Below, piece after piece: positions 39,339 to 64,000 of a stretch of DNA of 64,000 nt. This DNA is from Natronosalvus vescus (GTDB taxonomy: Archaea; Halobacteriota; Halobacteria; Halobacteriales; Natrialbaceae). Below the pieces are notes generated by a model. It did no database searches and was not told the DNA's origin. It worked only from the letters and a program-made list of their open reading frames with translations. Position 1 is the first letter of the stretch. Each line of letters begins with the position of its first letter. The DNA lies in assembly GCF_023973145.1 (NCBI RefSeq), contig NZ_CP099546.1, positions 744,001 through 808,000 on the forward strand. Direction: 5' to 3'. The position numbers and the translations under genes were made by a program.

Positions 39339-40523
39339 TTAGCAGCCGGTCGGTCCGCAGCTGAGCTCTATCTCATCGTCGAGGAACGCCTGTCTCGCGG
39401 CTTCGATGTTCTCTTCGAGGGAGTCGGGAAGTTCACCTTCGAACTCCTGACCGACGACGAAGTCGATCCCCTCGTTCTCGATGCTGAGGTTCTGTTCGCC
39501 CGAGACGCTTCCCCAGTCGTCTTCGTACACCGCTTCGGCGACCATGTACGTGGCCTCGTTGAGGGCTTTGATCGCCGAGCCGAGAATGACGTCTGCGTAC
39601 TGGTCGTCGGTGACCGACTGGTCGCTGTCGACGCCGAGGGCGAAGCGATCGTTGTCCTGTGCGGCAGAGAACGCCCCTGCGCCCGCTGCGGCCGCGGCGT
39701 GCCAGACGATGTCGGCACCGTCGTCGAACTGCGAACTGGCGACCTCGTTCAGCGCTTCGGAGTCGGAGAAGCTGCCACCGTAGCCGGTGAGCACCTCGAT
39801 GCTGTCGTCGACCCACTCGACGCCTTCGATGTAGGACTGCTCGAAGGCGTTGATCAGGTCGATGTCCTCGCCGCCGGCAAAGCCGACGATGGACTCGTCC
39901 GGATCGGTGGAACTATCGTCGTGTTCAATCTCCTCGTGGGTCAACGTTCCGGCAGCGACGCCCGCGAGGAACGACATCTCGTTGTTCATCTCGATCCAGC
40001 CCGAGACGTTCTCCGCACCCTCGACGTGGTCGTTGATGAGCATCCAGTACTGATCCGGGTACTGCTCGGAGTTCTCCGCCAGCCCCTCCCAGTGCTGGTA
40101 GCCGACCATCACGATGAGATCGTAGGAACCATCCGCAGCGAGGTCTTCCTGCCTGGCCGCGAAGTTGGCGGTCTCGGTCTCTTCGACCTGTGTAACCTCG
40201 AACCCGAAGTCGTCAGCTGCCTCCTCGAGCCCCTCGAGGGCGTTGTCGTTGAACGCGTTGTCGCCGAAGCCGGCGTCGCTCGAGATGATGGCGACCTGGT
40301 TGTCGGCGTCGGCGTCGCCATTGCCGTTACCGTTCCCGTTGCCATTGCCGTTGCCGTTGCCATTACCGTTACCGTTTCCGTCGTCGTCACCGTTCCCGAG
40401 ACACCCAGCGATCGCAATGCCACCGAGGGCTGCACTCGAGCCAAGTATCGATCGGCGAGAGATGCGCGATTTAGAGGACTCTACCGGTTCCTTCTCACCA
40501 TCATTGCCATTGGGTAGCACCAT
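39339..40523 (-). CDS. BMP-family substrate-binding lipoprotein
   Basis: A 394-residue lipoprotein of the BMP/Med/PnrA family, which bind purine or other nucleosides and sometimes sugars outside the membrane. The N-terminus has a Tat motif (R23-R24 in SRRSILG) and a lipobox IAGC with the lipidated cysteine at 41. Residues about 49-68 are a perfect (Asn-Gly)n linker encoded by six-base repeats. The ligand-binding domain begins at VAIISSDAGFGDNAFND and includes VGYQHWEG. It is the first gene of the importer operon, 54 bases before the ATPase gene. It ends in CGPTGC, an unusual cysteine-containing tail. Confidence 0.92.
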   Translation of the reverse strand: MVLPNGNDGEKEPVESSKSRISRRSILGSSAALGGIAIAGCLGNGDDDGNGNGNGNGNGNGNGNGNGNGDADADNQVAIISSDAGFGDNAFNDNALEGLEEAADDFGFEVTQVEETETANFAARQEDLAADGSYDLIVMVGYQHWEGLAENSEQYPDQYWMLINDHVEGAENVSGWIEMNNEMSFLAGVAAGTLTHEEIEHDDSSTDPDESIVGFAGGEDIDLINAFEQSYIEGVEWVDDSIEVLTGYGGSFSDSEALNEVASSQFDDGADIVWHAAAAAGAGAFSAAQDNDRFALGVDSDQSVTDDQYADVILGSAIKALNEATYMVAEAVYEDDWGSVSGEQNLSIENEGIDFVVGQEFEGELPDSLEENIEAARQAFLDDEIELSCGPTGC

Positions 40524-40827
40524 ACGTGGAATGTTACTACACAGATATTAAATCTTTTCGACAAACATTTCGACCGACGTTTTGGCTGTATTATCTGAGA
40601 TAAGTAACAATGTGTGTATGTGTTAGTGGGCTAATTATAGTTCGTAGGTAGCTTCGGGGAAGTACACGTATGTCCAGCCATCAATTCGACAGCCTGGAAT
40701 CCCACTCGGGAGCGAAACCGATCGGTGCGAAAGTCGGTCAAGATCCCTGGCGAGTCTCACACCGATCTCCAGTCGGCGCAGTGGCAGGGACACGATCGTG
40801 GTAGTGTCTGCGCCGATTCGACGGGCG
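40524..40827. promoter_or_regulatory. Promoter region of the BMP importer operon
   Basis: 304 bases without a gene. On the minus strand TTTAATATC (40544-40552) sits about 25 bases before the ATG at 40523, giving a leaderless mRNA. A near-perfect 13-base palindrome TTATCTGAGATAA at 40591-40603 lies about 40 bases upstream of that box and is a candidate activator or repressor site. The segment 40640-40827 has no recognisable feature. Confidence 0.5.
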
Positions 40828-41796
40828 TCAATCGGTGATCTCGGTCGTCGGCTGACCAACAGATCCAGCGAGGCGTTTACGATACACGCCGAGTGCCCCA
40901 TACAGTCCGATCTCGGTTCCGAGCGGAGTGATCTCGAGTTCCGGCCGGTCGACGAAGCAGTACCGCTCGAGGTAACGATCGATTCCCTCGAGCAGCCAGT
41001 CGGCATTGTTGAGCGCGACGCCGCCGCCCACTGTCACGCGACCCGGGTTAAACGAGTTACACAGCGTGCCGATGCCAGCGGCGTTGTACCGGGCGATCCG
41101 ATCCAGACAGTCGGTCGCGAAGCGATCCCCATCCGATGCGGCGTCGAAAACGTCCTGAGCGGTGAGTTCGCGTTCGATCTCCGAGAGGACGCTCCCATCG
41201 CCGTCTCCGTTCTCGAGGCGGTGAGCGACGTACTGTGGGATCCCTCGACCCGAACAGTACGCCTCCCAGGCGCCGGTGACCGCAGCGCTTTCGAGGGGGC
41301 CCTCCGGTTCGATCGGGAGGAGACCGAACTCGCCGGCCTGGCCGTGTTCGCCGCGAACGAGGCGACCGTCTTCGACGACACCGCCGCCGATTCCCGTGCC
41401 GAAGGTTACGTGGAGCAACGAGCGGACGTCACTCCGTTGCCCGAAGTACCACTCACCGAGTGCGGAGGCACTACAGTCATTTTCGACGACCGTCTCGAGG
41501 CCGAACCGACGTTCGATCGGGGTGGACAGATCCAGGTGCTCGATGAGTGCACCGTCCGGCGTATCGAACGCACTGATACACCCTGACTCGGGATCGACCA
41601 ATCCCGGTGCAGAGATCGCGACAGCATCCAGGGACTCCGATTCCAGCCGCGTCTCGAGTGTGTCGATCAGTTGCGTCTCGAGCGCGTGGGGTCGCGTCGG
41701 TTCCGTCGAGACTGCGGTCACAAAATCGCCCTCCGGCGTTCCGACCGTGTAGTGGAAGTTCGTGCTTCCGACGCCGAAGAGCGCAACGCGAGTCAT
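40828..41796 (-). CDS. ROK-family protein (sugar-kinase-like)
   Basis: A 322-residue protein of the ROK family (sugar kinases and repressors). The ATP and sugar-binding blocks are VTFGTGIGGGVVEDGRLVRGEHGQAGEFG and GRVTVGGGVALNN. No N-terminal helix-turn-helix is present, so a kinase is more likely than a repressor. The zinc motif CxCGxxGCxE found in most ROK kinases is missing: the region reads EPEGPLESAAVTGAWEAYCSG. The start at 41796 (MTRVALFGVGS) is the usual family beginning. It lies upstream of the importer operon on the same strand, which suggests phosphorylation of an imported sugar or nucleoside-derived pentose. Confidence 0.85.
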   Translation of the reverse strand: MTRVALFGVGSTNFHYTVGTPEGDFVTAVSTEPTRPHALETQLIDTLETRLESESLDAVAISAPGLVDPESGCISAFDTPDGALIEHLDLSTPIERRFGLETVVENDCSASALGEWYFGQRSDVRSLLHVTFGTGIGGGVVEDGRLVRGEHGQAGEFGLLPIEPEGPLESAAVTGAWEAYCSGRGIPQYVAHRLENGDGDGSVLSEIERELTAQDVFDAASDGDRFATDCLDRIARYNAAGIGTLCNSFNPGRVTVGGGVALNNADWLLEGIDRYLERYCFVDRPELEITPLGTEIGLYGALGVYRKRLAGSVGQPTTEITD

Positions 41797-41920: not shown

Positions 41921-43255
41921 TTACGCATCCATCGCCGAGTCCGATACCTCGAGGGCGACGTCGATCGCGTCGATCGCGGCGTCGACGTCTTCCCGGGTGA
42001 TCGTCAGCGGCGGGGAGATGATCAGCGTGTTGATCATGTTCGCCACGTAGGTGCCGTTCTCGAGGGCGGTCGCCGCCACCTCGTCGACGATGGTCGACCC
42101 CTTCGAGAGCTTGTCCGCTCGCGTGCCGAAGGGCTCGCGCCCGTCGCTCCGCTTCGTGAGTTCGATGCCGTGGAACAGGCCGATACCCCGCGTGTCACCC
42201 ACGCTCGGGTGACTGTCGGCCAGGTCGTCGATCCGACCCTCGAGGTACTCGCTCATCTCGCTCGAACGCTCGATGAGGTTCTCCTTTTGGTAGGTTTCGA
42301 CGGCGGCGAGCCCGGCGGCGCAGGCGACGGGATGACCTGCGTAGGTGTGGCCGTGAGTCAGCATGTTGTCCTCAAAGTGGTCGGCAATCTCGTCGGTCAC
42401 AGTAGTCGCCGCGAGCGGCGCATATGCCCCCGAGAGTCCCTTGGCCATCGTCATGATGTCGGGGGTGACGTCGTAGACATCGCTGCCAAACCACTCGCCG
42501 GTGCGGCCGAACCCGGTCATGACCTCGTCACAGATGAGCAGTGCGCCGTGGTCGTGGGCGATCTCCTTGAGCCGGGGGAGGTACTCCGGCGGCGGGACGA
42601 GGATCCCGTTAGAGCCGACGATCGGTTCGACCAGGACGGCCGCAACCGTGTCGCCCTCGAGCATCAGCATCTCGTCGATGTACTCGAGGCTCTCCATGGG
42701 ATCGAGCGTCGAGCCGTAGGCGTAGGGGTCGGGCGCTTTGATCATTCCGGGGATACCGGGTTCGGCGGCGAGGCGTCTCGGATCGCCAGTGACGCTGATC
42801 GAGCCAGCCGTCGCGCCGTGATAGGAGCGGTAGCGCGAGATGATCTTGTCCTTCCCCGTGTAGAATTTGGCAATTTTGAGGGCGGCTTCGACGGCTTCGG
42901 TGCCGCTGGTCGAGAAGAACGTCTTCGAGAGATTGCCTGGGGTGACGTCGGCGAGTTTTTCGCCGAGTTTGGCTCGCGCCTCGGTGGCAAACCCGGGCGC
43001 AAAATACGCTCCGTTCTGGGCTTGTTCGGCGATGGCGTCGGCGACGGCATCGGCCGAGTGGCCGAGGTTCGAACACATGAGCTGTGCGGAGAAATCGATG
43101 TACTCGGTGCCATCGGCGTCGGTGAACGTCACCCCGTCGCTCTCGACGATCTGTGTCGGTGCGACCTCGCTCTGGTAGGCCCACGTGCCGAAGACGTACT
43201 CCTTATCGAGCGCCTCGATTTCGTTGAGATCTGCCGCATAGTCGCCTGTTGCCAT
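41921..43255 (-). CDS. Class III aminotransferase (omega-amino acid:pyruvate/beta-alanine type)
   Basis: A 444-residue PLP enzyme of the class III aminotransferases, with the PLP lysine K272 in MAKGLSGAYAP, the aspartate of CDEVMTGFGRTG and the substrate region SYHGATAGS. Family members move amino groups from omega-amino acids such as beta-alanine, GABA, taurine or putrescine to pyruvate or 2-oxoglutarate. It is divergent from a CoA-acylating semialdehyde dehydrogenase, which is the next step for beta-alanine (malonate semialdehyde to acetyl-CoA) or beta-aminoisobutyrate. The exact substrate is inferred from this pairing only. Confidence 0.88.
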   Translation of the reverse strand: MATGDYAADLNEIEALDKEYVFGTWAYQSEVAPTQIVESDGVTFTDADGTEYIDFSAQLMCSNLGHSADAVADAIAEQAQNGAYFAPGFATEARAKLGEKLADVTPGNLSKTFFSTSGTEAVEAALKIAKFYTGKDKIISRYRSYHGATAGSISVTGDPRRLAAEPGIPGMIKAPDPYAYGSTLDPMESLEYIDEMLMLEGDTVAAVLVEPIVGSNGILVPPPEYLPRLKEIAHDHGALLICDEVMTGFGRTGEWFGSDVYDVTPDIMTMAKGLSGAYAPLAATTVTDEIADHFEDNMLTHGHTYAGHPVACAAGLAAVETYQKENLIERSSEMSEYLEGRIDDLADSHPSVGDTRGIGLFHGIELTKRSDGREPFGTRADKLSKGSTIVDEVAATALENGTYVANMINTLIISPPLTITREDVDAAIDAIDVALEVSDSAMDA

Positions 43256-43430: not shown

Positions 43431-44903
43431 ATGTCACACGATAGCTCAGCCTCAGGTGGCGATGTGCGAAACTACGTCGACGGCGACTGGGTCGCCCCGA
43501 CGGCCGACGACGGCCAGGACGTCGTCAACCCCGCTACCGGGGAGACCCTCGGCTACGTCGGATACAGCTCCGAAGACGACGTGGATGCAGCCGTCCAGGC
43601 TGGCGCCGACGCGTTCGAACAGTGGCGACGGACGCCGGTCGAAGCGCGCATCCAGCCGCTGTTCGAACTCAAACCGCTGCTCGAGGAACACCAGCAGGAA
43701 CTCGCCGAGATTCTCGTTCGAGAGCACGGCAAGACGATTGGCGAGGCCCGCGGCGAACTCCGTCGAGGAATCGAGAACGTCGAGGTCGCCTGCGGTATCC
43801 CGACGCTGATGCAGGGGGGCCACGTCCAGAACGCTGCCCCGTCGATCGACGAGACGGCCGTCAGAGAGCCCCTGGGCGTGTTCGCCGCGATCACACCGTT
43901 CAACTTCCCCGGCATGATCCCGCTGTGGTTCCTCCCCTATGCGGTGGCGACCGGCAACAGCTTCATCTTGAAACCGAGCGAGCGTGATCCACTCGTCGCC
44001 GAGCGGATGTTCGAACTCATCGACGAGGCCGGCTTCCCCGACGGTGTCGTTCAACTGGTCAACGGCAGCGTCGACACCGTCACCGCCCTCATCGAACACG
44101 ACGGCATCGAAGGAATCTCCTTCGTCGGCAGCACGCCCGTTGCCAAACACGTCTACGAACAGAGCGCCGCCAACGGCAAGCGCGTCCAGGCACAGGGCGG
44201 GGCGAAAAACCACGTCATCGTCTCCGAGACCGCCGACCTCGAGTTCGCTGCCGAAAAGACCGTCAGCTCGGCGCTAGCCTGCTCGGGTGAGCGGTGTCTC
44301 GCAAACGACGTCGTGCTCGTCGAGGAGTCGGTGTACGAGTCGTTCGTCGACCTCGTCGCCGCGGAAGCCGACCGCCAGGTCGTCGGCAACGGCCTCGAGG
44401 AAGACACGACCGTCGGCCCGCTCATCACGCCGGAACACGAACAGCGGGTTCGCGAGTACGTCGAGACGGGTCTCGAGGAGGGGGCCGAACTGGTCGTCGA
44501 CGGGCGGGACGTCGACGTCGACGAGGCTGGGAACTTCCTCGGCCCGTGTGTCTTCCGGGACGTCACCCCCGAGATGGTCATCTCTCGAGAGGAGATCTTC
44601 GGCCCGGTGCTCGGACTGATGCCCGTCGAGAACGTCGCCGAGGGGATCGAGGTCATGAACCGCAGCGACTTCGGCAACGCCGCCAGCCTCTTTACGGGAA
44701 GCGGCGCGGAGGCCCGGCAGTTCCGCCACGAGGCCGAGGCCGGAAACCTCGCGGTCAACGCAGGCACCGCCGCGCCGATGGCGTTCTTCCACTTTGGCGG
44801 TCAGAAGGACTCGTTCTTCGGCGACCTCCACGCGCAGGCCGAGGACGTCGTCCGATTCTACACCGACGAGACGGTCTACATCGAGCGCTGGCCCGAGGAG
44901 TAA
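43431..44903 (+). CDS. mmsA: CoA-acylating (methyl)malonate-semialdehyde dehydrogenase
   Basis: A 490-residue aldehyde dehydrogenase that converts malonate or methylmalonate semialdehyde to acetyl-CoA or propionyl-CoA with NAD+ and CoA. The catalytic cysteine is C289 in SGERCLA; TPFNFP holds the oxyanion asparagine N159. The usual general-base glutamate is replaced in GGAKNHVIV (N260), the hallmark of the CoA-acylating MMSDH subgroup. It serves valine, beta-alanine or inositol breakdown; the adjacent omega-aminotransferase favours beta-alanine. A TATA box at 43401 gives a near-leaderless transcript. Confidence 0.93.
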   Translation: MSHDSSASGGDVRNYVDGDWVAPTADDGQDVVNPATGETLGYVGYSSEDDVDAAVQAGADAFEQWRRTPVEARIQPLFELKPLLEEHQQELAEILVREHGKTIGEARGELRRGIENVEVACGIPTLMQGGHVQNAAPSIDETAVREPLGVFAAITPFNFPGMIPLWFLPYAVATGNSFILKPSERDPLVAERMFELIDEAGFPDGVVQLVNGSVDTVTALIEHDGIEGISFVGSTPVAKHVYEQSAANGKRVQAQGGAKNHVIVSETADLEFAAEKTVSSALACSGERCLANDVVLVEESVYESFVDLVAAEADRQVVGNGLEEDTTVGPLITPEHEQRVREYVETGLEEGAELVVDGRDVDVDEAGNFLGPCVFRDVTPEMVISREEIFGPVLGLMPVENVAEGIEVMNRSDFGNAASLFTGSGAEARQFRHEAEAGNLAVNAGTAAPMAFFHFGGQKDSFFGDLHAQAEDVVRFYTDETVYIERWPEE

Positions 44904-44984: not shown

Positions 44985-45503
44985 TCACTCCTCTTTTTGC
45001 ACGATTCCCTTCATGTCGTCCGACATCACCGACACGACGCTCGGGGAGCTTTTGATCTCGTCCATGACGAACCGCGAAGAGGTCTCTTTGACGCCGTCGA
45101 TGCCGACGATTTCGTCGAGCACCTCGTTCATCTGCTCGCGATCCTGGACGCGCATGATGGTGACGAAATCGACGTCCCCCATCGTGTAGTAGACCTGTTC
45201 GATGCCGTCGATCCCGGCGAGATCCGTGCCGATGTCCTCGGAGTAGCCCTGCTCGTGTGTCACCGCCACCTCGGTGATCGCCACCATGTCGAGGCCGAAC
45301 GGCACCGGGTCGAGGTCGGCGGTGACGCCCTTGATCACCCCGCGCTTTTTGAGCTTCTCGAGGCGGTAGTGGATCGCCGATTTCGACAACCCAAGCTCTT
45401 CGGAGAGGACGTTGAGGTTGACGTCGAAGTCGTTCTCTATGTACTCGAGCAGGTCGATATCGGTCTGATCGAAGGTCTCGGCTCGAGAGCGAGTTTTTGA
45501 CAT
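44985..45503 (-). CDS. Lrp/AsnC-family transcriptional regulator
   Basis: A 172-residue regulator with an N-terminal winged HTH (about residues 11-60, LGLSKSAIHYRLEKLKKRGVIKG) and a C-terminal RAM ligand-binding domain (VAVTHEQGYSEDIGTDLAGIDGIEQVYYTMGDVDFV). These proteins sense amino acids or related metabolites and form octamers. The start ATG 45503 (MSKTRSRAETF) is set by family length; the upstream open frame lacks resemblance. It is convergent with mmsA, with 81 bases between, and is the best local candidate regulator for the aminotransferase-mmsA pair. Confidence 0.92.
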   Translation of the reverse strand: MSKTRSRAETFDQTDIDLLEYIENDFDVNLNVLSEELGLSKSAIHYRLEKLKKRGVIKGVTADLDPVPFGLDMVAITEVAVTHEQGYSEDIGTDLAGIDGIEQVYYTMGDVDFVTIMRVQDREQMNEVLDEIVGIDGVKETSSRFVMDEIKSSPSVVSVMSDDMKGIVQKEE

Positions 45504-45678
45504 ACGCTCAGTTGAGCACGGTGAAACATAAAAGAGGTGTGTTATTTCCGCAATCGTCGGGTCGCCGTCGAGGACACTGGCTATTTTCGGGCGTGGTACC
45601 GAACCGCGGATAGTGAACAAAACCGACCACATGGGTCGGGGTTCTCGCCCTGCACCGCCTATAGAGGAATTCTTGACG

Positions 45679-46449
45679 TCACTCGAGTTCCCGTTCGACG
45701 ACCAGCCCGTGCTCGTGTGCCTTTCGAGCGACGCCGACCGTCAGCGCGTGGTAGGCACCGCCGAGGTCGGCGTCGATCTGAACGTCGTCCAGGCCGCCGA
45801 TCACGACAACGTCCGAGAGGACGTCGGCGGCCGAGTGAGTGACTGCAACCGCCGCGTCGGGAGCCAGGTACGGCGTCGTCGACGTCGTGATGGCCTCGGT
45901 CACGGCCGGGTCGGCGCCGTCGGCGGGCACCTCGGCCGTGAAGCGCTGACCCTCGTAGCGTAGATCGAGTTCGACACCAGCACCGACGTCTCGGGGCGAA
46001 ACGGTGATCTTCCCGTCGTTCGTCTCGAACGAAATCGTCTCACCCACGGTCGTCCGGCGTTCGGTACCAGAACGTTCGGTACCGACGTCGGCCACCGCCC
46101 TGGCGAGTGCCGGGTTCGGCAGTCCCGCTGGATGGCTGACGACGGCGTCGGGGCCGCGCTCGCTCGAATAACAGATCCGGTGTTCGGGCCTCGTGAAGTC
46201 CCACTCGCTGGTGATCCCGACGACGTTCGCGGCCGTGACGCCACCCAGTCGAAGCGGCCCGAGAACGTGTTCGACGACGAAGGCGCGGTTTCTCGAGACG
46301 CCCTCGAGCGATTCGACCAGATCGACGCGAACGTCGGCCTTGCGGACGTGCTCGAGGGTCGCCGGAATCCCGTTGATCCGGATGCCCGGCTCGTCGCTCG
46401 GTTCGACGCGGACGTACTCGCCTTCGGCGGGTTCGGTGACGGTTCTCAT
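45679..46449 (-). CDS. LpxC-like zinc deacetylase family protein (function unknown)
   Basis: A 256-residue protein with the residue pattern of the bacterial deacetylase LpxC. AFVVEHVLGPLRLGGV gives E60 and H61 (E78 and H79 in E. coli LpxC). THSAADVLSDVVVIGG gives H205, D209 and D213 (H238, D242, D246). YHALTVGVARKA gives H234 (H265). Spacings (144 and 29 residues) are close to LpxC (159 and 27). Between them GVELDLRYEGQRFTAEV matches the start of the second LpxC domain. It lacks an insert present in LpxC. Archaea have no lipid A, so another N-acyl or N-acetyl substrate must be acted on. It is the last gene of the SDR-M20-M20-like operon and overlaps the preceding gene by 4 bases. The family call is by eye. 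Confidence 0.55.
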   Translation of the reverse strand: MRTVTEPAEGEYVRVEPSDEPGIRINGIPATLEHVRKADVRVDLVESLEGVSRNRAFVVEHVLGPLRLGGVTAANVVGITSEWDFTRPEHRICYSSERGPDAVVSHPAGLPNPALARAVADVGTERSGTERRTTVGETISFETNDGKITVSPRDVGAGVELDLRYEGQRFTAEVPADGADPAVTEAITTSTTPYLAPDAAVAVTHSAADVLSDVVVIGGLDDVQIDADLGGAYHALTVGVARKAHEHGLVVERELE

Positions 46450-47381
46450 CGGGATCCCTCGATCCCTTTCGCTCCCATTTCCAGCGTCTCGATCGTTCGC
46501 TCGAGCAGCCGACGACACGTCTCGACGTCCTCGGCGTCGAACGACTGGCCCGCAGCGCCGGTTCCGAGGGCGAGTTTGTTCGGGCTGGGAACCGCCGTGA
46601 ACGGCGCGGTCGGTGGGAGCCACGCGTACTCGTCGTCCCCTACGATCGAGACGTGGGCGGCCTCGGCCGCTTCTCGAACCGCTGGGTCGGGAACCGCCCG
46701 TTGGACGCCGCTCAGGCGCTCGAGACGAACATTCGTGACGCCCGAACAGTCCTCGAAACGGGCCTCGACAGCGTCGGCCGTCGTCGCTGGCGTCGTCCGG
46801 ACGTCGAACGCGACGACCATCGTCTCATCGGCGACCTGCATCGACTCGAGCGCGAACGTCGTCATTCCCGTTGTGAACACCCCCAGGTCGTCGTCGTCGA
46901 CCGGGTAATACTCGTGGTCAGGCTGGGCTGCCTCGAGCACCGACCCCACTCGCTCGTGATCGTCGGCCACGCGATTCCCTGCCGAGCGCTCTAGGGTGAC
47001 GGTTACCGTCGCCCGGCCGCGAGACACCGTCCCCAGGCGGCCGCCCAGGGGCTCGAGGACGAGCCACGGCCCCTCGGCGGTGAGATCAAATTCTGCCTCC
47101 GGGTAGTGCAACCGGGCGTCGGAGTCGGCGGTCACCGTCGCGGCGGCTGCGAGCAGCCCGGCCCGTGCGCCATCAGTGCCGACGTAGGCGTCTCGTTCCG
47201 GGCCGCCGTCTTCTGGCTCGATCGTTGCCCGGTCGACGGCCGAGAGCAGGTCGTCGCCCTCGAGTGAGTGAGCCAAGACGTTCACCCCATCGCCGTCGAC
47301 ACCGGCGAGCGCCCGCTCGCGAACGGTCTCGAGCGACGGAAGCTGTCCGTCTTCCAATTCGCCGGAGCCACCCTCAACCAT
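46446..47381 (-). CDS. Degenerate M20-peptidase-like protein (probable pseudoenzyme)
   Basis: A 311-residue protein whose second half follows the M20 (ArgE/DapE) peptidase fold: RGRATVTVTLERS opens the dimerisation domain, MVVAFDVRTTPATTADAVEARF is its last strand and helix, and LALGTGAAGQSFDAEDVETCRRLL occupies the place of the final metal-binding segment. The HxD zinc motif is absent, and the last zinc histidine is replaced in GQSFDAEDV. Only GTDGARAGLLAAAATV resembles the bridging-aspartate region. It is therefore probably inactive as a peptidase and may serve as a partner. It overlaps the true M20 gene by 8 bases and the LpxC-like gene by 4. Confidence 0.6.
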   Translation of the reverse strand: MVEGGSGELEDGQLPSLETVRERALAGVDGDGVNVLAHSLEGDDLLSAVDRATIEPEDGGPERDAYVGTDGARAGLLAAAATVTADSDARLHYPEAEFDLTAEGPWLVLEPLGGRLGTVSRGRATVTVTLERSAGNRVADDHERVGSVLEAAQPDHEYYPVDDDDLGVFTTGMTTFALESMQVADETMVVAFDVRTTPATTADAVEARFEDCSGVTNVRLERLSGVQRAVPDPAVREAAEAAHVSIVGDDEYAWLPPTAPFTAVPSPNKLALGTGAAGQSFDAEDVETCRRLLERTIETLEMGAKGIEGSR

Positions 47382-48639
47382 CTAGCTCCCCCATCAAATC
47401 GGCCGTGGCCGCGGCCATCACCTTCGCCGCGGTGACGACCTCCTCCGTTGGCACGTACTCGTCTTCGACGTGGGCCTGCTCGAGCAACCCCGGCCCGTAG
47501 ACGATACACTCCTCGATGCCGGCGTCGTTGACGACGAAGCGCTGGTCGTCCGACCCCGGCGAGACGACGTACTCGGGTTTCCCGTGGTGAGGTTCGATCT
47601 CGCGGGCGAACGACTGGGCGACCGTACAGTCCCGGGAGACGATGGCGGGTTCGGCGAACATGATCTCCTCGTACTCGACACGGGTACCGGTCGCGGCCTC
47701 GGTCTCGGCCATCAGCGTTTGAATCTCCTCGCGAGCGCTCTCGACGCTCTCTTCGGGTACCAGCACGCGGTAGAACGTCGAGGTACACCGGTCGGGGACG
47801 ACGTTCTCGGAGTAGCCCGCGTCGATCATCGTCGCCGAGATGTCGGCTCGGGCGGACTCCGACGGGACGACGGGTTCGTCGGTCGTCCGCTCGTGGAGAC
47901 GGTCGCGGTAGGCGTCGATCCGGGTGAGGAAGTCGTTCATCGCCATCACGGCGTTGTGCCCGTCGTGGGCCATGCAGCCGTGGGCCTTCTCGCCGTGTGT
48001 GCGAACTCGGAACTTCAACACGCCGCGGTGGCCGAGACAGATGCGCGAGGAGTCGAAACACTCGGTGTAGACGCAGTAGTCGGTGTTCTCCGCGGAGAGG
48101 TGCCCCTCCCGCACCAGTTCACCCAGGCCGGTGAACCCGCCGGTCTCCTCGTCGACGGTCATGCTCTGGGTGATCGTTCCTCGGATTGGTACGTCGAGTT
48201 CCCGGAGGGCGTCGATCGCGAGCACGCTCGCGGCGATGCCCGATTTCATATCGCTCGAGCCGCGGGCGTAGAGCTTTCCGTCCTCGAGACGGGGCTCGTA
48301 GGGGTCGGTCGCCCAGTCCTCGCCCGCCGGCACCACGTCGAAGTGGCCGGTGAAGTGAATGTCAGGTCCCTCCCGTCCCTCGTCCAGGTGGGCGAGGACG
48401 TTCACTCGCTCGTGATCGGTTCGATCCGGGTAGTACTCGGCGACGACGGACTCGGGGACGGTGAGCAGGTCGACGTCGTAGGTGCGCGCCTCGAGCTGGT
48501 CGCGGAGGAATTCTGCGCCCTCGCGGTAGTTCATGCCCGGCGGATTTTCGGTCTCAATGCGCAGGAACTCCTCGAGGAATGCGAGGCCCTCCTCGTACTT
48601 TCGGTCGACGGCGTCGGTGATCGCGTCGCGTGTCGTCAT
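47374..48639 (-). CDS. M20-family metallopeptidase/deacylase (ArgE/DapE type)
   Basis: A 421-residue enzyme with an intact M20 metal site: FTGHFDVVP (first zinc histidine and aspartate), ARGSSDMKSG (bridging aspartate), VDEETGGFTG (catalytic glutamate pair), a later YTECFD acid and a C-terminal histidine in GLLEQAHVEDE. The dimerisation domain begins at LGHRGVLKFRVRTHGEKAHG. Such enzymes cleave N-acyl or succinyl groups from amino acids or act as dipeptidases in the cytoplasm. It lies 12 bases after the SDR gene and overlaps the M20-like gene by 8 bases, so it is part of the four-gene operon. Confidence 0.9.
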   Translation of the reverse strand: MTTRDAITDAVDRKYEEGLAFLEEFLRIETENPPGMNYREGAEFLRDQLEARTYDVDLLTVPESVVAEYYPDRTDHERVNVLAHLDEGREGPDIHFTGHFDVVPAGEDWATDPYEPRLEDGKLYARGSSDMKSGIAASVLAIDALRELDVPIRGTITQSMTVDEETGGFTGLGELVREGHLSAENTDYCVYTECFDSSRICLGHRGVLKFRVRTHGEKAHGCMAHDGHNAVMAMNDFLTRIDAYRDRLHERTTDEPVVPSESARADISATMIDAGYSENVVPDRCTSTFYRVLVPEESVESAREEIQTLMAETEAATGTRVEYEEIMFAEPAIVSRDCTVAQSFAREIEPHHGKPEYVVSPGSDDQRFVVNDAGIEECIVYGPGLLEQAHVEDEYVPTEEVVTAAKVMAAATADLMGELDG

Positions 48640-48651
48640 CTCGTGGCCACC

Positions 48652-49401
48652 TCAGATGTCACGTCCACCGTCGACCTCGAGCGCCGTCCCCGTTATCATT
48701 GCGGCATCCTCGCTGGCGAGGAAGACGGCCGCGGCGGCGACGTCCGTCGGTTCACACAGCCGCCCCAGCGGGATGGTGTCGTGCATCGACTCGACGCTGA
48801 GGTCGCCGGCGGCGAAGTCCTGTAACATGGGCGTGTCCGTCGCGACCGGGCAGATGGCGTTGACTCGGATGCCGTCGTCGGCCAGTTCGTAGGCGAGTTG
48901 TTTCGTCAGTCCGACCATGCCCGCCTTCGAGGCGACGTACGCCGAGAGGCCGGTTCGTGGCCGTATCGCCGCCGTCGAGGCCGTGTTGAGAATCACGCCG
49001 GCGTCGGACTCGCGCAGGTGTGGCACCGCGTACTTCGTTCCGAGGAAGGCGCTTTTGAGGTTGACGTCCTGGATCGCGTCCCACGTCTCTTCGTCGACGT
49101 CTTCGACGGGCGTCGACTCCTGTGGAATGCCGGCGTTGTTGTGCAACACGTCCAGGCCGCCGAACTCGGTGACGGCTCGGTCGATCATCCCCTCGACCGC
49201 CTCCGGGTCGGAGACGTCGGCGACGTGGGTCACGGCATCCCCGCCGTCGGCGCCGATGGCGTCGGCGGTCGATTCCGCGGCGGTTTCCTCGAGGTCGACG
49301 ACCAGGACGCTCGCCCCCACGTCGGCGAACCGCCGAGCGGTCGCCTCACCCATGCCCGAGCCAGCGCCGGTCACGATCACGCGTTGGTCACTATCATGCA
49401 T
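48652..49401 (-). CDS. Short-chain dehydrogenase/reductase (SDR)
   Basis: A 249-residue classical SDR. The NAD(P) motif is TGAGSGMG (11-18), NNAG follows at 88-91, and the catalytic residues are S142, Y155 and K159 (YVASK). D36 in VVDLEE suggests NAD preference. Family substrates include sugars, 3-oxoacyl compounds and alcohols. It is the first gene of the operon with the M20 enzyme, the M20-like protein and the LpxC-like protein, so a hydroxyl or keto compound carrying an N-acyl group is a reasonable shared substrate, by inference only. Confidence 0.92.
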   Translation of the reverse strand: MHDSDQRVIVTGAGSGMGEATARRFADVGASVLVVDLEETAAESTADAIGADGGDAVTHVADVSDPEAVEGMIDRAVTEFGGLDVLHNNAGIPQESTPVEDVDEETWDAIQDVNLKSAFLGTKYAVPHLRESDAGVILNTASTAAIRPRTGLSAYVASKAGMVGLTKQLAYELADDGIRVNAICPVATDTPMLQDFAAGDLSVESMHDTIPLGRLCEPTDVAAAAVFLASEDAAMITGTALEVDGGRDI

Positions 49402-53119: not shown

Positions 53120-54142
53120 TTAGTCAGCCCAGTGGTGACAGGCCACCGATCCGATTCCCGTGTCTTCGAGGTCAGGATCCTCGACCTCACACTGCCGTTG
53201 ATCCCCCTCAGCCAACTCGGGCTTCAACTGGCATCGTGGATGGAAGTTACAGCCAGTGGGCGGATCGGCCGGATCCGGCGGCGTGCCCTCGAGGTGAATC
53301 CGGTCGTCCGACCGGCCACCAGTGCCGACGGTCGGCACGCTCGAGAGCAGCGACTGCGTGTAGGGGTGTTTGGGATCCTCGAACAGCGTCTCGACGTCGG
53401 TCAGTTCGACGATTCGGCCGAGATACATGACGGCCACACGGTCGGCGATATGCCGGACGACGCTCATGTCGTGGCTCACGAACAGGAACGTGAGGTCGTA
53501 CGTCGTCTGTAACTCCTCGAGCAGCGAGAGGATCTGTGCCTGTACGGAGACGTCGAGTGCACTCACCGGCTCGTCTGCGACGACGATGGATGGATTCAAC
53601 GCGAGGGCTCGAGCGATCCCGACGCGTTGACACTGCCCGCCGGAGAGCTCGTGGGAGAATCGGTTGAAGTGGTCGTTCGGATCGAGCCCGACGACGTTGA
53701 GTAGCTCGCGAACACGCTCGTTCGGGTTCTCGACGCCACCGTGAATGCTCATCGGCTCCTTGATAATTCGTCCGACGGTCATTCGGTCGTTGAGGCTGGC
53801 AGAGGGATCCTGGAAAATCATCTGGAGATCCCGCCGAATCCGTCGAAGCTCCGATCTGTCGAGGCTAGCGAGATCCTTGCCATCGTAGCGAACCGTGCCG
53901 GCTGTCGGTTCGTGTAACTGGAGAAGCGTTTCAGCCAGCGTGGATTTCCCGCAGCCAGATTCGCCGACGATCGCTAAGGTTTCCCCCGGATAGAGGTCGA
54001 AACTCACGCCGTCGACGGCTTTGACGTCACCGACGTGGCGATTGAGGATCCCGCTGGTAATCGGATAATACTTCTTCAGATTTTCGACACTCAAGAGTGG
54101 CTCGGTCGTCACACGCTCCTCGGTCGGTGACGGTATGGTCAT
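53120..54142 (-). CDS. dppF: Peptide ABC transporter ATP-binding protein (DppF/OppF type)
   Basis: A 340-residue ATPase with Walker A GESGCGKS (60-67), the signature LSGGQCQR, Walker B IVVADEP and the oligopeptide-transporter C-terminal region with clustered cysteines (TGCNFHPRC). The N-terminal VENLKKYYPITSGILNRHVGDVKAVDGV is typical of OppF/DppF. It overlaps the DppD gene by 4 bases. Both ATPase genes face away from the substrate-binding protein and permease genes, which lie on the other side of a 326-base region. Confidence 0.92.
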   Translation of the reverse strand: MTIPSPTEERVTTEPLLSVENLKKYYPITSGILNRHVGDVKAVDGVSFDLYPGETLAIVGESGCGKSTLAETLLQLHEPTAGTVRYDGKDLASLDRSELRRIRRDLQMIFQDPSASLNDRMTVGRIIKEPMSIHGGVENPNERVRELLNVVGLDPNDHFNRFSHELSGGQCQRVGIARALALNPSIVVADEPVSALDVSVQAQILSLLEELQTTYDLTFLFVSHDMSVVRHIADRVAVMYLGRIVELTDVETLFEDPKHPYTQSLLSSVPTVGTGGRSDDRIHLEGTPPDPADPPTGCNFHPRCQLKPELAEGDQRQCEVEDPDLEDTGIGSVACHHWAD

Positions 54143-55116
54143 CGGTGATACTCCTCCGTGTGGATGTAACAGGCGCTCATTCGTTGGGGGCCGAATTCGA
54201 CGTCGGGTGGGCGCTCCTCTTTACAGAGCGGTTTAGCGTCTGGACACCGGGGGTGGAACCGACAGCCGGATGGCGGGTTGGCGAGGTTCGGTGGCATTCC
54301 GTCTATCGGATCCAGTTCACCTGGATTGTCGATTCTGGGGACGCTGTTCAGGAACGTTCGCGTATAGGGATGTTTTGGGTCGGCAATGATCTCCTCGAGC
54401 GACCCTTTCTCGGCAATCCGACCGGCGTACATCACGATCACGTCGTCACACACCTCCGAGACGACGCCGAGGTCGTGCGTGATCATCAACAGCGCCATCT
54501 CTCGAGTCTCCTGCAATCGTTCGAAGAGATCGATCACCTGGGCCTGAATCGTCACGTCCAGTCCGGTCGTCGGTTCGTCCGCGATCAGCAAGTCCGGCTC
54601 ACACGCCAGCGCCTGGGCGACGAGTGCACGCTGGGCCATCCCTCCGGAGTACTCGTGTGGATAGCGGTTGACGGCTTCCTCCGCGTTCGGTATCCCGACC
54701 TCCTCGAGCAGGCTGATCGCCCGCTCGTGTGCCTCCTGTTTACTAACATCCTCGTGGGCACGAATCCCTTCCGCGATCTGGTAGCCGACCGTGTACGCAG
54801 GATCGAGCGCGGAGCGTGGCTCTTGGAACACCATCGCGATTTCGTTGCCGCGAATAGCGCGAAGTTCGTCGGTGCTCATCTCGAGTACGTCGCGCCCTTT
54901 CCAGCGGACGGTGCCCGATTTGATCTCGCCGGGCGATTCGATGAGGCGGACGATCGAACGAACAGACACCGATTTCCCACTGCCACTCTCTCCGACGATA
55001 CCGACGGCATTGCTGGGGGAGACCGTATAAGAAATGTCATCCACTGCAGACACTTCCCCTTCGCTCGTCCGAAAGGTGGTTGTAAGATTTTCAACCTCCA
55101 ATAACGGGTCTGCCAT
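54139..55116 (-). CDS. dppD: Peptide ABC transporter ATP-binding protein (DppD/OppD type)
   Basis: A 325-residue ATPase with Walker A GESGSGKS (43-50), signature YSGGMAQR, Walker B LLIADEP and the C-terminal cysteine region [15 protein letters not shown]. It pairs with DppF to drive di- or oligopeptide import. The start ATG 55116 ([11 protein letters not shown]) is the family start; the upstream open frame to 55227 contains cysteine- and histidine-rich leader sequence without resemblance. It is divergent from the substrate-binding protein gene at 55443. Confidence 0.92.
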
Positions 55117-55442
55117 TTGTGTACATCTGTGTGAGTGAGGACAAAGGCTTTTCCCTGGCCGGTTCGATTTATTCTCGTCTGAAGGAGACATACAAACGCA
55201 GGATGCGTCTGTCGTCCACATCTGCACACGTATTTCGGTGGTGGTCTCGGTATCGAAATTTCGTTTAATGATTTACGATACCTGGTCAATATCATTCAAT
55301 GCTAATTGGGGGCACGGACGCCACAACTTTCGGTAGAGAGGCGCCATCGGCACACTCTTCTCACTGTTTGTGTTTGTACTAATGTCTCCAAAACTGATCT
55401 AAACCAGCAGCTATAGGTGGATAGAACAGTATCCTAATAATC
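55117..55442. promoter_or_regulatory. Divergent control region of the split peptide transporter
   Basis: 326 bases without a gene. On the plus strand CTATAGG (55411-55417) lies about 26 bases before the ATG at 55443, consistent with a leaderless transcript. No clear TATA box was identified for the minus-strand ATPase genes. Because both halves of one transporter start here, shared regulation through this segment is expected. Confidence 0.5.
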
Positions 55443-57077
55443 ATGGACAATATGGAAGATCCTGGTGAGAATGTGGGTGAAAGAAGAAAATTCCTCAAGC
55501 TGGCCGGTGTCGTCGGTGCCAGTGCGCTCGCGGGGTGTATGGGTGGTGATGACGATGAAGACGACGGTAACGGGACACCCGACCTCGGCGACGACAACGG
55601 CAACGGAGACGATGAACCTGACGAAGTAACCGAGGGTGGAACGCTTCGAGTCGGCTACGAAGCCGACCTGACGGGACTGGATCCGCACAACATTTCGAGC
55701 GTCGTCTCGTGGAACGCGATATACAACATCTGTGAGACACTGATCACGTTCGACGACGGTGAAGCGGTCGGTCGACTCGCCGATGACTACGACGTCGACG
55801 GAACGACGTATACGTTCCACCTGAAAGAGGGCGTTCAGTTCCACGACGGCTACGGCGAGATGACCGCCGACGACGTGGTCTACTCGTTCGAACGTATGAT
55901 GGACGAGGAAGCCTCGACGAGTCCAGATCTGCTCGCGACCGTCGAGGACGTGCGTGCCGTCGACGAATACGAGGTCGAAGTCGAACTCCAGGAGACGTTC
56001 GGCCCGTTCTTACAGTATCTCGCCCGTGTCCACTGGGTCATCGTGCCAGAAGACGCCGTCGAGGAGCAGGGTGGGAACATCGACGACTTCCAGGAGCCGG
56101 TCGGCACCGGACCGTTCGCGTTCGAAGAGTACACCCCGGACAACAGCCTCGTGATGTCGGCGTTCGACGATTATCACGTCGAGGACGCCCCTCACGTCGA
56201 CGAGGTCGAACTAATCATTACCCCGGATCCGGACTCGCGCGTACTGGCACTACAAAACGACGACCTCGACTTCGCTCGTGAGATTCCGGGTCGACACGCC
56301 GAATCCCTCCAGAACGATGACGATACGAAAGTCGCCCTGAGCGAAGCAACCGGGTGGGCAATGATCCACATCAACTGCAGTGAACCACCGTGGGATGATC
56401 CCGCCGTCCGACGCGCCGCTGCCCACGTCATCGACCGCGATGCGGTTATCGACGCCGCACTCTTCGGCTTCGGGTCGGCCGGTGTTCAGCCGTTCCCGGA
56501 AGGAAACGTCTGGAACTACGACCTCGATAACGAACGCTGGCAGGATCTCGAGGAAGCCCAGCGCATCCTCGAGGAGGCCGGAAACCCGCTCGAGGGCGAA
56601 ACGCTCGAGATCAAAGTCACCAGCGAGTACTCCATTCAGGAAGCGATGGGCGAAATCATCCAGGCTAACTTCGCCGAAATCGGTGTCGACGTCGAACTCA
56701 ACAACCAGGAGTGGGGTACTCATCTCAACGACTTCGTCGAATCGAACTTCGGTGCGCTGTCGTTCTCGGTTCCCTACAAGGTCGACCCCGACCGCCACTA
56801 CTACGGGTTCCTCGTCGAAGACGGGTACAACAAGTACAACGACGAACAACCCGACGCCGACCGCGTCCGTGAGCTCCTCGAGCTTGGTCGCGACGAACTC
56901 GACGAGGACGAACGTCTCGATATATACGCCGAACTCGAGGGACTCGTCCAGGAACACGTTCCGTGGGTATCGGTCGCTCACACCGACGACATCAATGGCC
57001 TCCGTGCGAACGTTTATGGATTCGAGGAGTGGACGCTTCCGTACGACCGCTACTGGACGATGTGGGTCGACGAGTAG
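55443..57077 (+). CDS. Peptide ABC transporter substrate-binding lipoprotein (SBP_bac_5)
   Basis: A 544-residue extracytoplasmic lipoprotein. The Tat motif is R14-R15 (ERRKFLKLAG) and the lipobox cysteine is C32 in ALAGCMGG, followed by an acidic linker (DDDEDDGNG). The SBP family 5 core begins at GTLRVGYEADLTGLDPHN and has HLKEGVQFHDGYGEMTADDVVYSFERM and FAFEEYTPDN. It delivers peptides to the DppBC permeases. The start at 55443 is supported by the TATA element at 55411; a second ATG at 55452 is possible. Confidence 0.93.
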   Translation: MDNMEDPGENVGERRKFLKLAGVVGASALAGCMGGDDDEDDGNGTPDLGDDNGNGDDEPDEVTEGGTLRVGYEADLTGLDPHNISSVVSWNAIYNICETLITFDDGEAVGRLADDYDVDGTTYTFHLKEGVQFHDGYGEMTADDVVYSFERMMDEEASTSPDLLATVEDVRAVDEYEVEVELQETFGPFLQYLARVHWVIVPEDAVEEQGGNIDDFQEPVGTGPFAFEEYTPDNSLVMSAFDDYHVEDAPHVDEVELIITPDPDSRVLALQNDDLDFAREIPGRHAESLQNDDDTKVALSEATGWAMIHINCSEPPWDDPAVRRAAAHVIDRDAVIDAALFGFGSAGVQPFPEGNVWNYDLDNERWQDLEEAQRILEEAGNPLEGETLEIKVTSEYSIQEAMGEIIQANFAEIGVDVELNNQEWGTHLNDFVESNFGALSFSVPYKVDPDRHYYGFLVEDGYNKYNDEQPDADRVRELLELGRDELDEDERLDIYAELEGLVQEHVPWVSVAHTDDINGLRANVYGFEEWTLPYDRYWTMWVDE

Positions 57078-57148
57078 TCGATCCGTCGCCATCTCACGAG
57101 ATAGCATCACCTCACAACGCTTCACCCCCATATGACGCCAACTAACGT

Positions 57149-58099
57149 ATGACGCAGGTGCACGAGTACGCAATTAAACGAATTTTGTCGGCGATTCCGG
57201 TTCTCTTCATCGTCTCGTTCACGATAGTCGCACTCATTCGGATGGTTCCCGGGGATCCAGCCGTCATTATGCTCGGAACCGACGCCGATCCCGAACAACT
57301 CGCGGCGCTACGCGAGTCGATGGGGCTGAACCAGCCGTTGTATATTCAGTACATCGACTATATGTCCGGCGTCGTTCGTGGTGACTTCGGCTACTCCTAC
57401 ATGGGAGGGCAGTCAGTAACCGATGCAATTCTCCAGCGCCTTCCGATTACGATCTCGGTCGCAATCGGCGGATTCATCGTTTCCCTGGCCATTGCGATCC
57501 CGGCCGGAACGATTAGCGCTGTCAAACAGGATACCTCGAGCGACTACGCCGCACTCACATTCGGGCTGCTCGGCGTCTCCATTCCGAACTTTTGGCTCGG
57601 GATTATGTTGTTGATGGTGTTCGCCGTCTGGTTCGGCTGGTTTCCGGTTACCGGATACGTCTCACCACTCGACGATCCGATCGAGGGGATCCGCTATCTC
57701 GTCCTCCCGAGTATCACGCTCGGCACCGCAATGGCCGCGATCGTGACGCGGATGCTTCGATCGGAAATGCTCGAAGAAATCCGCATGGAGTACCCGGATT
57801 CGCTCCGAATGAAGGGCGTCAGCGAGATGACCGTCCTTCGTCACGTGATGAAGAACGCCTTCATCCCCGTGATTACGGTAATCGGGATGCAGGTCGGATA
57901 CCTCCTGGGTGGCACGATCGTCATCGAGGAAGTGTTCAGCATCCCCGGGATGGGGCGGCTATTGCTCGATGCGATATACAGCCGAGACTACATGATGTTA
58001 CAGGGTGTCGTACTGGTCTACACTGCCATGTTCATCGCGGTCAACGCGATCGTGGACATCACGTACTTCTACCTGAATCCAAAGCTGCAAGATCGGTAA
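57149..58099 (+). CDS. dppB: Peptide ABC transporter permease (DppB type)
   Basis: A 316-residue permease with six hydrophobic segments. DppB-type features include the N-terminal RILSAIPVLFIVSFTIVALIRMVPGDPA, the periplasmic region with ALRESMGLNQPLYIQYIDYM and the ATPase-contact EAA loop LRMKGVSEMTVLRHVMKNA. It pairs with the DppC permease, whose gene starts after a single spacer base. It lies 71 bases downstream of the substrate-binding protein gene. Confidence 0.94.
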   Translation: MTQVHEYAIKRILSAIPVLFIVSFTIVALIRMVPGDPAVIMLGTDADPEQLAALRESMGLNQPLYIQYIDYMSGVVRGDFGYSYMGGQSVTDAILQRLPITISVAIGGFIVSLAIAIPAGTISAVKQDTSSDYAALTFGLLGVSIPNFWLGIMLLMVFAVWFGWFPVTGYVSPLDDPIEGIRYLVLPSITLGTAMAAIVTRMLRSEMLEEIRMEYPDSLRMKGVSEMTVLRHVMKNAFIPVITVIGMQVGYLLGGTIVIEEVFSIPGMGRLLLDAIYSRDYMMLQGVVLVYTAMFIAVNAIVDITYFYLNPKLQDR

Positions 58100-58100
58100 T

Positions 58101-59000
58101 ATGAGCACGAAACTTCCATCACTGAGCGACTCCAGCGGCACCGAATCAGTACTGCGTCGCCGTACGAAGTTGTTCTGGCGTCGATTCCTGGCGAGCAAAC
58201 TGGCAGTCGTCGGTGCCGCGATTCTCTCGACGTTCGTGCTGGTCGGCGTGTTCGGCCCGTATCTCGCTCCCCACGACCCCGCGGCAATGAACCCGACACA
58301 CGCACTCGCGGAGCCGTCGCTGACGCATCCGTTCGGCACTGATCACTACGGACGCGATCTGTTCTCCCGTGTTCTCGCCGGCGCGCGGATCGCACTCATC
58401 GTTGCCCTTGGCGTCCCGGTTATCTCCATGACCATTGGCGTTCCCGTCGGTCTCGTCTCCGGCTACTTCGGCGGTCACGTCGACAACGTCCTGATGCGAC
58501 TGATGGATTCGTTGTTCGCGTTTCCGGCCGTCCTGCTCGGGTTGACACTCGTCGCCGTCTTCGGGACGGGACTGACAAACATCATCATCGCCATCGGTAT
58601 CGTGTTCATCCCACAGTTTGCCCGTATTACGCGCGGAAGCGCCGTCTCCGCCTCGAAAGAAGAACACGTGAAAGCGGCCAGGGCACTCGGTGGTTCCAAC
58701 GTCCGAATCATCGCGCTTCACATCTTCCCGTTCTGTATCTCTGCGATCATGGTTCAGGCGACGATCACGGCCGCCGCTGCGATCCTGGTGGAGGCGTCGC
58801 TCTCGTTCCTGGGTGTCGGGATGCAGCCACCGGATCCCTCCTGGGGATCGATGCTGCAGGTTGCCAAAGGATATCTCGGCCACGCATGGTGGTTCGGGTT
58901 CTTCCCCGGCGTGGCGATCATCTTCGCGGTAATGGGGTTCAACCTGCTCGGCGACGGCCTTCGGGACGTCCTCGATCCGCGGATGGATCCGGATCGGTAA
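58101..59000 (+). CDS. dppC: Peptide ABC transporter permease (DppC type)
   Basis: A 299-residue permease with an N-terminal cytoplasmic helix (RRTKLFWRRFLASKLAVVGAAIL), the DppC/OppC motif HPFGTDHYGRDLFSRVLAGARIAL and the EAA loop KAARALGGSNVRIIALHIFP. It completes the membrane part of the peptide importer. It is separated from dppB by one base, so the two are translationally coupled. It is convergent with the NUDIX gene. Confidence 0.94.
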   Translation: MSTKLPSLSDSSGTESVLRRRTKLFWRRFLASKLAVVGAAILSTFVLVGVFGPYLAPHDPAAMNPTHALAEPSLTHPFGTDHYGRDLFSRVLAGARIALIVALGVPVISMTIGVPVGLVSGYFGGHVDNVLMRLMDSLFAFPAVLLGLTLVAVFGTGLTNIIIAIGIVFIPQFARITRGSAVSASKEEHVKAARALGGSNVRIIALHIFPFCISAIMVQATITAAAAILVEASLSFLGVGMQPPDPSWGSMLQVAKGYLGHAWWFGFFPGVAIIFAVMGFNLLGDGLRDVLDPRMDPDR

Positions 59001-62856: not shown

Positions 62857-64000
62857 TCAGGCACCCGGGAGGTTCCCGCCGCCGTCACCGATGTTGATGG
62901 CGACGTTTTTCGACTGCACGTAGGACTCGAGCGCTTCCAGCCCCTTCTCCCGGCCGATTCCGCTCCGTTTGTAGCCGCCGAAGGGGGTCTGCTGAGTGTC
63001 GACGAACCAGTCGTTGACGTAGACGTTCCCGGCCTCGAGGCGACGTGCCAGGCGGCCCGCCCGGGAGACGTCGCTCGTGAATATCCCGGAGACGAGGCCG
63101 TAGTCGACGTCGTTCGCGATCTCGAGTGCCTCGGCTTCGGTGCTGAAGGGTATCACACAGAGCACGGGGCCGAAGATCTCCTCCTGGGCGATCCGCATCT
63201 CCGAGGAAACGTCGGTGAACACCGTCGGCGGAACGAAGTAGCCGCGGCGATCCGGCGGGGTGCCGCCGGTGGCGAGGGTCGCCCCCTCTGATTGCCCGAC
63301 GTCGATATAGCTCGTCACCTTCTCGTACTGCTCGGCGGAGGCGAGTGGCCCCATGTCGGCGTCTTCATCGCCGGGGGCGAGTTCGTAGTCGTCCGCGAGG
63401 GAGACGATCCGCTCGACGAACTCGTCGTAGACGGACTCGTGGATCAGGGCCCGGTCGGCGGCCGAACACACCTGTCCCGCGTTCGTGAAGATGGCCGTCG
63501 CGACCGTCTCAGCGGTTGCCTCGAGGTCGGCGTCCGGGAAGACGAGTGCCGGGTTCTTCCCACCGAGTTCGAGCGTGACGGGCGTGATCGTCTCGGCGGC
63601 CGTCCGCATGATGGTCTGGCCGGTCGGCACGCTGCCGGTGAAGGTGATCGTGTCGATCCCCTCGTGGGACGTGACGGCGGCCCCGGTCTCGCCACCGCCG
63701 GGGACGACGTTGATCAGGCCGTCCGGGACGTCCGTCTCCGCACACAGTTCCGCGAGGCGAAGGGAACTCAGCGGGGTCTGGGGGGCCGGTTTGAGGACGA
63801 CCGCGTTCCCGCCGACCAGCGCGGGTGCGGTGCCGCGGGCGAACAGGTTCCCGGGGAAGTTCCACGGCGTGATCTGGGCGCTCACCCCGTAGGGCTCTCG
63901 GATGGTGAAGTCGAGTTTATCGGGGCCGAGCGGGATGCTCCGTCCCTCGAGTTTGTCCGTAAACCCCGCGTAGTACTCGAAGTACCGGGCGGCGCTCTCG
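62857..64000 (-). CDS. NAD(P)-dependent aldehyde dehydrogenase (N-terminus outside the window)
   Basis: The frame is open to the right edge, so the N-terminal part is missing; about 380 residues are visible. The oxyanion asparagine lies in QITPWNFP, the general-base glutamate in TLELGGKNP and the catalytic cysteine in NAGQVCSA, so it is a classical non-acylating ALDH. The C-terminal part has EEIFGPVL and the tetramerisation end [21 protein letters not shown]. The substrate is unknown. It is probably co-transcribed with the downstream LeuB-like gene (43-base gap). Confidence 0.92.

Follow-up and report, generated by a model that had tools for sequence, protein, structure and literature searches.

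A remote LpxC homologue paired with a degenerate M20-like protein in haloarchaea: a candidate two-subunit amidase

Introduction

LpxC is a bacterial zinc enzyme that acts on a nucleotide sugar in the building of the outer membrane. It ranks as a major target for antibiotics, and its known role lies essentially in lipid A synthesis; T191 we take to be its oxyanion threonine. The zinc ligands of Escherichia coli LpxC are H79, H238 and D242; E78 serves as the base and H265, which D246 tunes, as the acid (PMC6286764, PMC10254716). K239 takes part in pyrophosphate binding, contacting the UDP pyrophosphate and the sugar, and the acyl tunnel is an insertion in the C-terminal domain that includes M195, I198, F212 and V217 (PMC6286764, PMC10254716). 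A haloarchaeal LpxC-like protein described here shares with LpxC (PF03331, EC 3.5.1.108) the order and near-identical spacing of V-E-H, HxxxDxxxD and a final histidine. It differs in falling below the Pfam cut-off, in having neither a counterpart of K239 nor the acyl tunnel, in carrying an EWxFxRPEHR block in place of the DGS region of LpxC, and in being archaeal and encoded in a catabolic-looking cluster.

Three other described or related systems bear on this cluster. Of the M20 metallohydrolases (ArgE/DapE, PF01546), it encodes one ordinary intact member, M20a, and a second protein, degM20, which matches a broad alignment of the family at the profile level but has no metal ligands, scores below threshold and occurs only beside the LpxC-like gene. 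Pseudomonas sp. AAC has a demonstrated beta-alanine route through an omega-transaminase and a malonate-semialdehyde dehydrogenase (PMC4907197). The haloarchaeal clusters resemble that operon in placing a class III aminotransferase near an MmsA-type dehydrogenase, but add amidases, a short-chain dehydrogenase (SDR), a second aldehyde dehydrogenase, an Lrp regulator and an importer. Finally, variant haloarchaeal clusters (L110-L120) combine an orthologous M20a (67-73% identity) with an SSF symporter and an intact second M20 hydrolase, M20b, but have no degM20/LpxC-like pair; many also carry the SDR, the second aldehyde dehydrogenase (ALDH2), the class III aminotransferase (AT3), MmsA and Lrp. 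A literature search of open-licence papers found no description of archaeal LpxC relatives.

Results and discussion

Organization of the locus

The window, a stretch of 64,000 nucleotides from Natronosalvus vescus, contains four co-directional open reading frames, separated from the SDR gene onwards by a 12-base gap, an 8-base overlap and a 4-base overlap, as the first-pass annotation had described. The features are as follows.

45679..46449, minus strand: P0001, LpxC-like protein of 256 aa and putative catalytic subunit of a zinc amidase (LpxC profile match and invariant residues)
46446..47381, minus strand: degM20 P0002, 311 aa, degenerate M20-like protein, putative pseudoenzyme partner (match to the broad M20 alignment)
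46446..46449, minus strand: ATGA stop/start overlap of 4 bases between degM20 and the LpxC-like gene (same overlap type in 11 of 12 copies)
47374..48639, minus strand: M20a P0003, 421 aa, intact M20 hydrolase of the ArgE/DapE group (PF01546, PF07687 and TIGR01910 over cut-off)
48652..49401, minus strand: SDR P0004, 249 aa (PF13561 and PF00106 over cut-off)
44985..45632, minus strand: Lrp/AsnC-type regulator (PF01037 over cut-off; linked in sister species and other families)
43431..44903, plus strand: MmsA-type CoA-acylating (methyl)malonate-semialdehyde dehydrogenase (TIGR01722, 497.7 bits against a cut-off of 448.5; linked across genomes)
41921..43255, minus strand: AT3, class III aminotransferase whose substrate is probably an omega-amino acid (PF00202 over cut-off; linked across genomes)
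62857..64000, minus strand: ALDH2, second aldehyde dehydrogenase, betaine-aldehyde dehydrogenase-like, truncated by the window end
53120..59000, strand unassigned: genes of an Opp-type ABC importer (cluster membership uncertain)

Between the window and its sister species, third codon positions were the most diverged in the LpxC-like and degM20 genes (0.46 and 0.55; first and second positions, 0.20-0.33), indicating that both are real genes. The SDR matched Pfam and contained all of the Rossmann GxxxGxG, NAG and YxxxK motifs. The Lrp-type regulator gene is co-directional and begins 46 bases past the LpxC-like gene, and its homologues suggest a true start nearer 45506. The closest solved relative of AT3 is a taurine:2-oxoglutarate aminotransferase. 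In two sister species (G112 and G115), the four genes lie with Lrp, MmsA, AT3, ALDH2 and an Opp-type importer within about 15 kb. Over 486 residues, ALDH2 of the window shares 81% identity with its linked counterpart in G115 (L108); in relatives the gene adjoins the SDR, unlike its far-end position in the window. The Opp-type importer of the window was only about 46-50% identical to that of the sister-species cluster. A BMP/PnrA-type lipoprotein and a ROK-family kinase are encoded on the same strand at 39339-41796; we rejected both as cluster members, as they are unlinked in the sister species, although G235 has a ROK kinase near the cluster. The four-gene pathway proposed at first is too small: the four genes are there, but a class III aminotransferase, MmsA, Lrp, a second aldehyde dehydrogenase and an importer belong to the larger set.

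Relationship of the LpxC-like protein to LpxC

Searched alone, P0001 had no match in Pfam or NCBIfam, and a single-sequence AlphaFold2 model of it was unusable (mean pLDDT 35). Profile comparison with hhalign was carried out against a bacterial LpxC reference alignment of 11 proteins encoded by E. coli or on plasmids. The match had a probability of 88.7% (E 2.6e-6, score 48.6) with eight members of the LpxC-like family and 85.8% (E 5.4e-6, score 46.7) with twelve. The best of 100 column shuffles scored 21.3 for the eight-member and 29.2 for the twelve-member alignment, a reversed alignment scored 13, and unrelated profiles (M20, SDR, ALDH2, Lrp, aminotransferase and MmsA) scored 12-22 against the family. 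Leaving out one member at a time changed the match little (E 1e-6 to 8e-6). With only seven canonical LpxC sequences as reference, the probability dropped to 33%; the relationship thus depends in good part on the more divergent LpxC paralogues.

Four of the eight members matched Pfam LpxC (PF03331) below the gathering cut-off of 27 bits, the best at 18.8 bits (E 0.0012); PF03331 was the only family matched by several members, through three different collinear segments. Among PDB profiles, the family matched LpxC alone (E about 0.8). A search for PF03331 in the genome of the window itself gave no match. These results, in which the profile match (86-89%, E 3-5e-6) stood over all controls, bear out the LpxC kinship proposed in the first-pass annotation, and on profile comparison the LpxC-like protein is shown to be a remote LpxC homologue.

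Plasmids of Paraburkholderia dioscoreae and Caballeronia insecticola also carry LpxC paralogues (L126:6974-7888 and L127:6965-7891), whose neighbors are a type I polyketide synthase and a class I/II aminotransferase. It therefore seems that bacteria, too, have LpxC relatives with roles other than lipid A synthesis.

Active site of the LpxC-like protein

The V-E-H motif (E60 and H61), H205-xxx-D209-xxx-D213 and H234 were present as first annotated. An unprompted profile alignment placed E60, H61, H205, D209 and D213 on LpxC E78, H79, H238, D242 and D246, and H234 within two residues of H265. T192 would correspond to LpxC T191, lying just before a missing insertion. E60, H61, T192, H205, D209, D213 and H234 were invariant in all 12 homologues (46-69% identity), including the five residues (E60, H61, H205, D209 and H234) whose conservation had been predicted. 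Because the motifs are invariant in 12 of 12 and in register with LpxC, they are not due to chance. Of the third motif, annotated as H-A-L, only the histidine is conserved; the homologues read HAL, HAE, HEL, HDD or HTL.

Two parts of LpxC are missing. The position of K239 holds S, A or W. T192 and H205 are 13 residues apart, compared with 47 between T191 and H238 in E. coli LpxC, and the insertion is unmatched in the alignment; the acyl tunnel has therefore been deleted. Since both the UDP-binding lysine and the acyl-tunnel insertion are missing, the protein is not the LpxC of lipid A synthesis, in agreement with the initial assessment. The family has a conserved block of its own, xWxFxRPEHR...VVxHxxGLxNP, which is probably substrate-specific. 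Judged from its residues, the LpxC-like protein should work as LpxC does, with zinc binding and catalysis predicted for it, yet it is not LpxC.

A degenerate M20-like protein and an intact M20 hydrolase

We compared degM20 with M20 alignments of different breadth. It matched a broad M20 alignment with a probability of 86.8-89.8% (E 2-4e-6, score 52.4; best shuffle 18.7) and had no match to narrow M20 alignments. A Pfam search with seven degM20 members found no match, all falling below every curated threshold. degM20 has no HxD motif, the glutamate of its EP motif is unconserved and the C-terminal histidine is gone. By profile comparison, degM20 appears to be a remote M20 homologue; it is without metal ligands. 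Profile comparison gave no support for a small LysK-like M20 group as its specific parent, and there was likewise none for M20b. M20a matched PF01546 at 104.5 bits (Pfam cut-off 24.6) and contains H99, D101, D130, E164, E165, E193 and H390, that is, the five metal ligands and the catalytic glutamate. The division into an active and an inactive M20 protein, made in the first reading of the DNA, thus stood.

Between the window and the sister-species loci L005 and L006, M20a and the SDR were about 86-87% identical, the LpxC-like protein about 69% and degM20 about 53%. At a second locus of G247 (L032:9494-11211), degM20 has a twin-arginine-like N-terminus, as if exported.

Distribution of the pair and linkage of the genes

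Genome searches yielded 12 copies of the LpxC-like family in 11 haloarchaeal genomes: seven in a sample of 391 genomes of the class, and four genomes from searches of two families. A sample of 295 genomes from the phylum gave no believable member beyond that of the window, two short extra matches being false. Peptide-pattern scans of genome contigs (with a single protein and with a three-sequence alignment), viral contigs and plasmids detected no relatives. What looked like distant homologues in G049 and G563 proved to be agmatinases with a chance EWDF...CYY-like stretch, and those in G157, G169, G211, G312, G412 and G747 short segments of long reading frames; all were rejected. The agmatinases at L004 and L123 contain a short EEWDF...CYY-like stretch through which they falsely matched the family at E about 1e-4.

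degM20 and the LpxC-like gene were adjacent in all 12 copies, and degM20 was found only there; in G405 it is cut by a contig end. The junction is a 4-base (A/G)TGA overlap in 11 copies and TGATG in the twelfth. Ten of the 12 copies are linked to M20a (in G405 the link apparently spans the contig break), and the SDR was absent near the pair in G689, G690 and G741. Neither M20a nor the SDR was found near the pair in G702 or at the second locus of G247, a stand-alone pair (L032:9494-11211). As the two genes are always adjacent, overlap and twice occur without the other two, the pair constitutes a functional unit. The operon-like layout of the proposed four-gene unit is real, but the conserved unit is smaller: degM20 and the LpxC-like gene are the core, M20a is the usual companion, and the rest, including an optional SDR, is variable pathway context.

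Exchange of the pair with a second M20 hydrolase

Eighteen of the genomes sampled from the class have an M20a orthologue. Seven of them carry the pair, 11 have the intact M20b in the cluster, and none has both there. If the genomes were independent, the chance of such a clean 7/11 split would be 1 in 31,824 (1/C(18,7)), which overstates its rarity because the genomes are related. The M20b clusters usually contain an SSF symporter, and several contain an amidase of the hydantoinase/carbamoylase family. The M20a tree, which is partly unresolved, interleaves pair-type and M20b-type clusters, which argues for repeated exchange. On the best reading of this pattern, the pair would have displaced the ordinary second M20 hydrolase of related clusters. 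G247 has a relative of M20b elsewhere in its genome (58% identity).

Proposed function and alternatives

We propose, with a probability of roughly 0.55, that the LpxC-like protein and degM20 each contribute a subunit to a single zinc-dependent amidase, which would act with M20a in amide catabolism and replace M20b. In the LpxC-like subunit, zinc would be held by H61, H205 and D209, E60 would activate water, T192 would steady the oxyanion, and H234, tuned by D213, would protonate the leaving amine. degM20 would be an M20-fold pseudoenzyme retained for substrate binding or assembly, its ratio to the LpxC-like subunit fixed through coupled translation. The pair and the intact M20a would strip amide bonds off an imported small molecule, the pair substituting for M20b; where the cluster is fuller, an alcohol would be oxidised by the SDR and ALDH2, and AT3 and MmsA would convert the freed beta-alanine-like amino acid to an acyl-CoA. 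Both the formation of a degM20/LpxC-like complex and the pathway are inferred.

The LpxC-like protein might instead be an active zinc deacetylase on an unrelated substrate, such as a cell-surface N-acetyl sugar or a nucleotide sugar, with its catabolic neighbours incidental. The substrate of LpxC itself is a nucleotide sugar, G702 and the second G247 locus have the pair on its own, and the twin-arginine-like N-terminus of the degM20 copy in L032 hints at extracellular work. We consider this unlikely, however, given the unconserved UDP-binding lysine, the deleted acyl tunnel, the linkage of M20a in 10 of 12 copies and the exclusion of M20b from clusters with the pair. That same linkage of an intact M20a, and the loss of M20 ligands from degM20, would also suit an arrangement in which M20a is the sole hydrolase and a non-catalytic LpxC-like protein and degM20 are its accessory or regulatory subunits. 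Invariance of seven catalytic-type residues in 12 of 12 homologues (46-69% identity) is unexpected for a non-catalytic subunit, and G702 and G247 have a pair without M20a nearby, which makes this arrangement improbable.

It is more doubtful still that the resemblance to LpxC is convergent or a chance pattern in a protein of another fold: the profile score lies far over those of 200 shuffles and of all unrelated families, the three separate Pfam LpxC segments are collinear in different members, and the catalytic positions fall in register. The lack of a significant single-sequence database match for P0001, its unusable structure model (mean pLDDT 35) and the weaker match to canonical LpxC alone are the points in favor of chance. 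For the two-subunit amidase, a broader claim can be made tentatively, at somewhat less than even odds: the pair may represent an undescribed archaeal amidase type, in which a catalytic subunit of the LpxC fold, drawn away from lipid A chemistry, has an obligate partner of pseudo-M20 type, and for which an ordinary M20 hydrolase can substitute in a pathway of amide degradation. If so, the LpxC fold would be a more general zinc amidase scaffold, the family would provide an outgroup for LpxC evolution, and the pair would be an example of a pseudoenzyme-supported amidase.

Pathway context

The aminotransferase, MmsA, Lrp, the second aldehyde dehydrogenase and the importer suggest a catabolic route with a beta-alanine-like amino acid at its end. 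Some variant clusters encode a carbamoylase-type amidase that has N-carbamoyl-beta-alanine amidohydrolase and beta-alanine synthase among its relatives, a kinship that fits such an endpoint. The amidases would release the beta-alanine-like amino acid from an imported amide, and the SDR and ALDH2 would oxidise the alcohol part. Removal of an acyl or acetyl group from an amine, with oxidation or reduction of the product, had been suggested at first; we infer acyl-group removal plus oxidation, and acetyl as the leaving group was unsupported. The pathway is a guess, because the SDR, the aminotransferase and the dehydrogenases are unlinked in some genomes. One may speculate that the substrate is pantothenate/panthenol or an N-acyl-aminopropanol, for which the SDR, ALDH2, amidase, AT3 and MmsA would act in a plausible order. 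Ectoine degradation (doe), suggested by the combination of Lrp, aminotransferase and dehydrogenase, was rejected: the cluster has no doeA/doeB-like gene, and MmsA does not fit.

Two variant clusters have further neighbors. In that of G094 (L120:2221-5975), an ABC importer apparently of the spermidine/putrescine type, as typed by eye, lies beside the aminotransferase and Lrp and is a possible hint to the substrate. In L110 (7985-9829), an aldehyde ferredoxin oxidoreductase (PF01314, PF02730) is encoded directly downstream of M20a.
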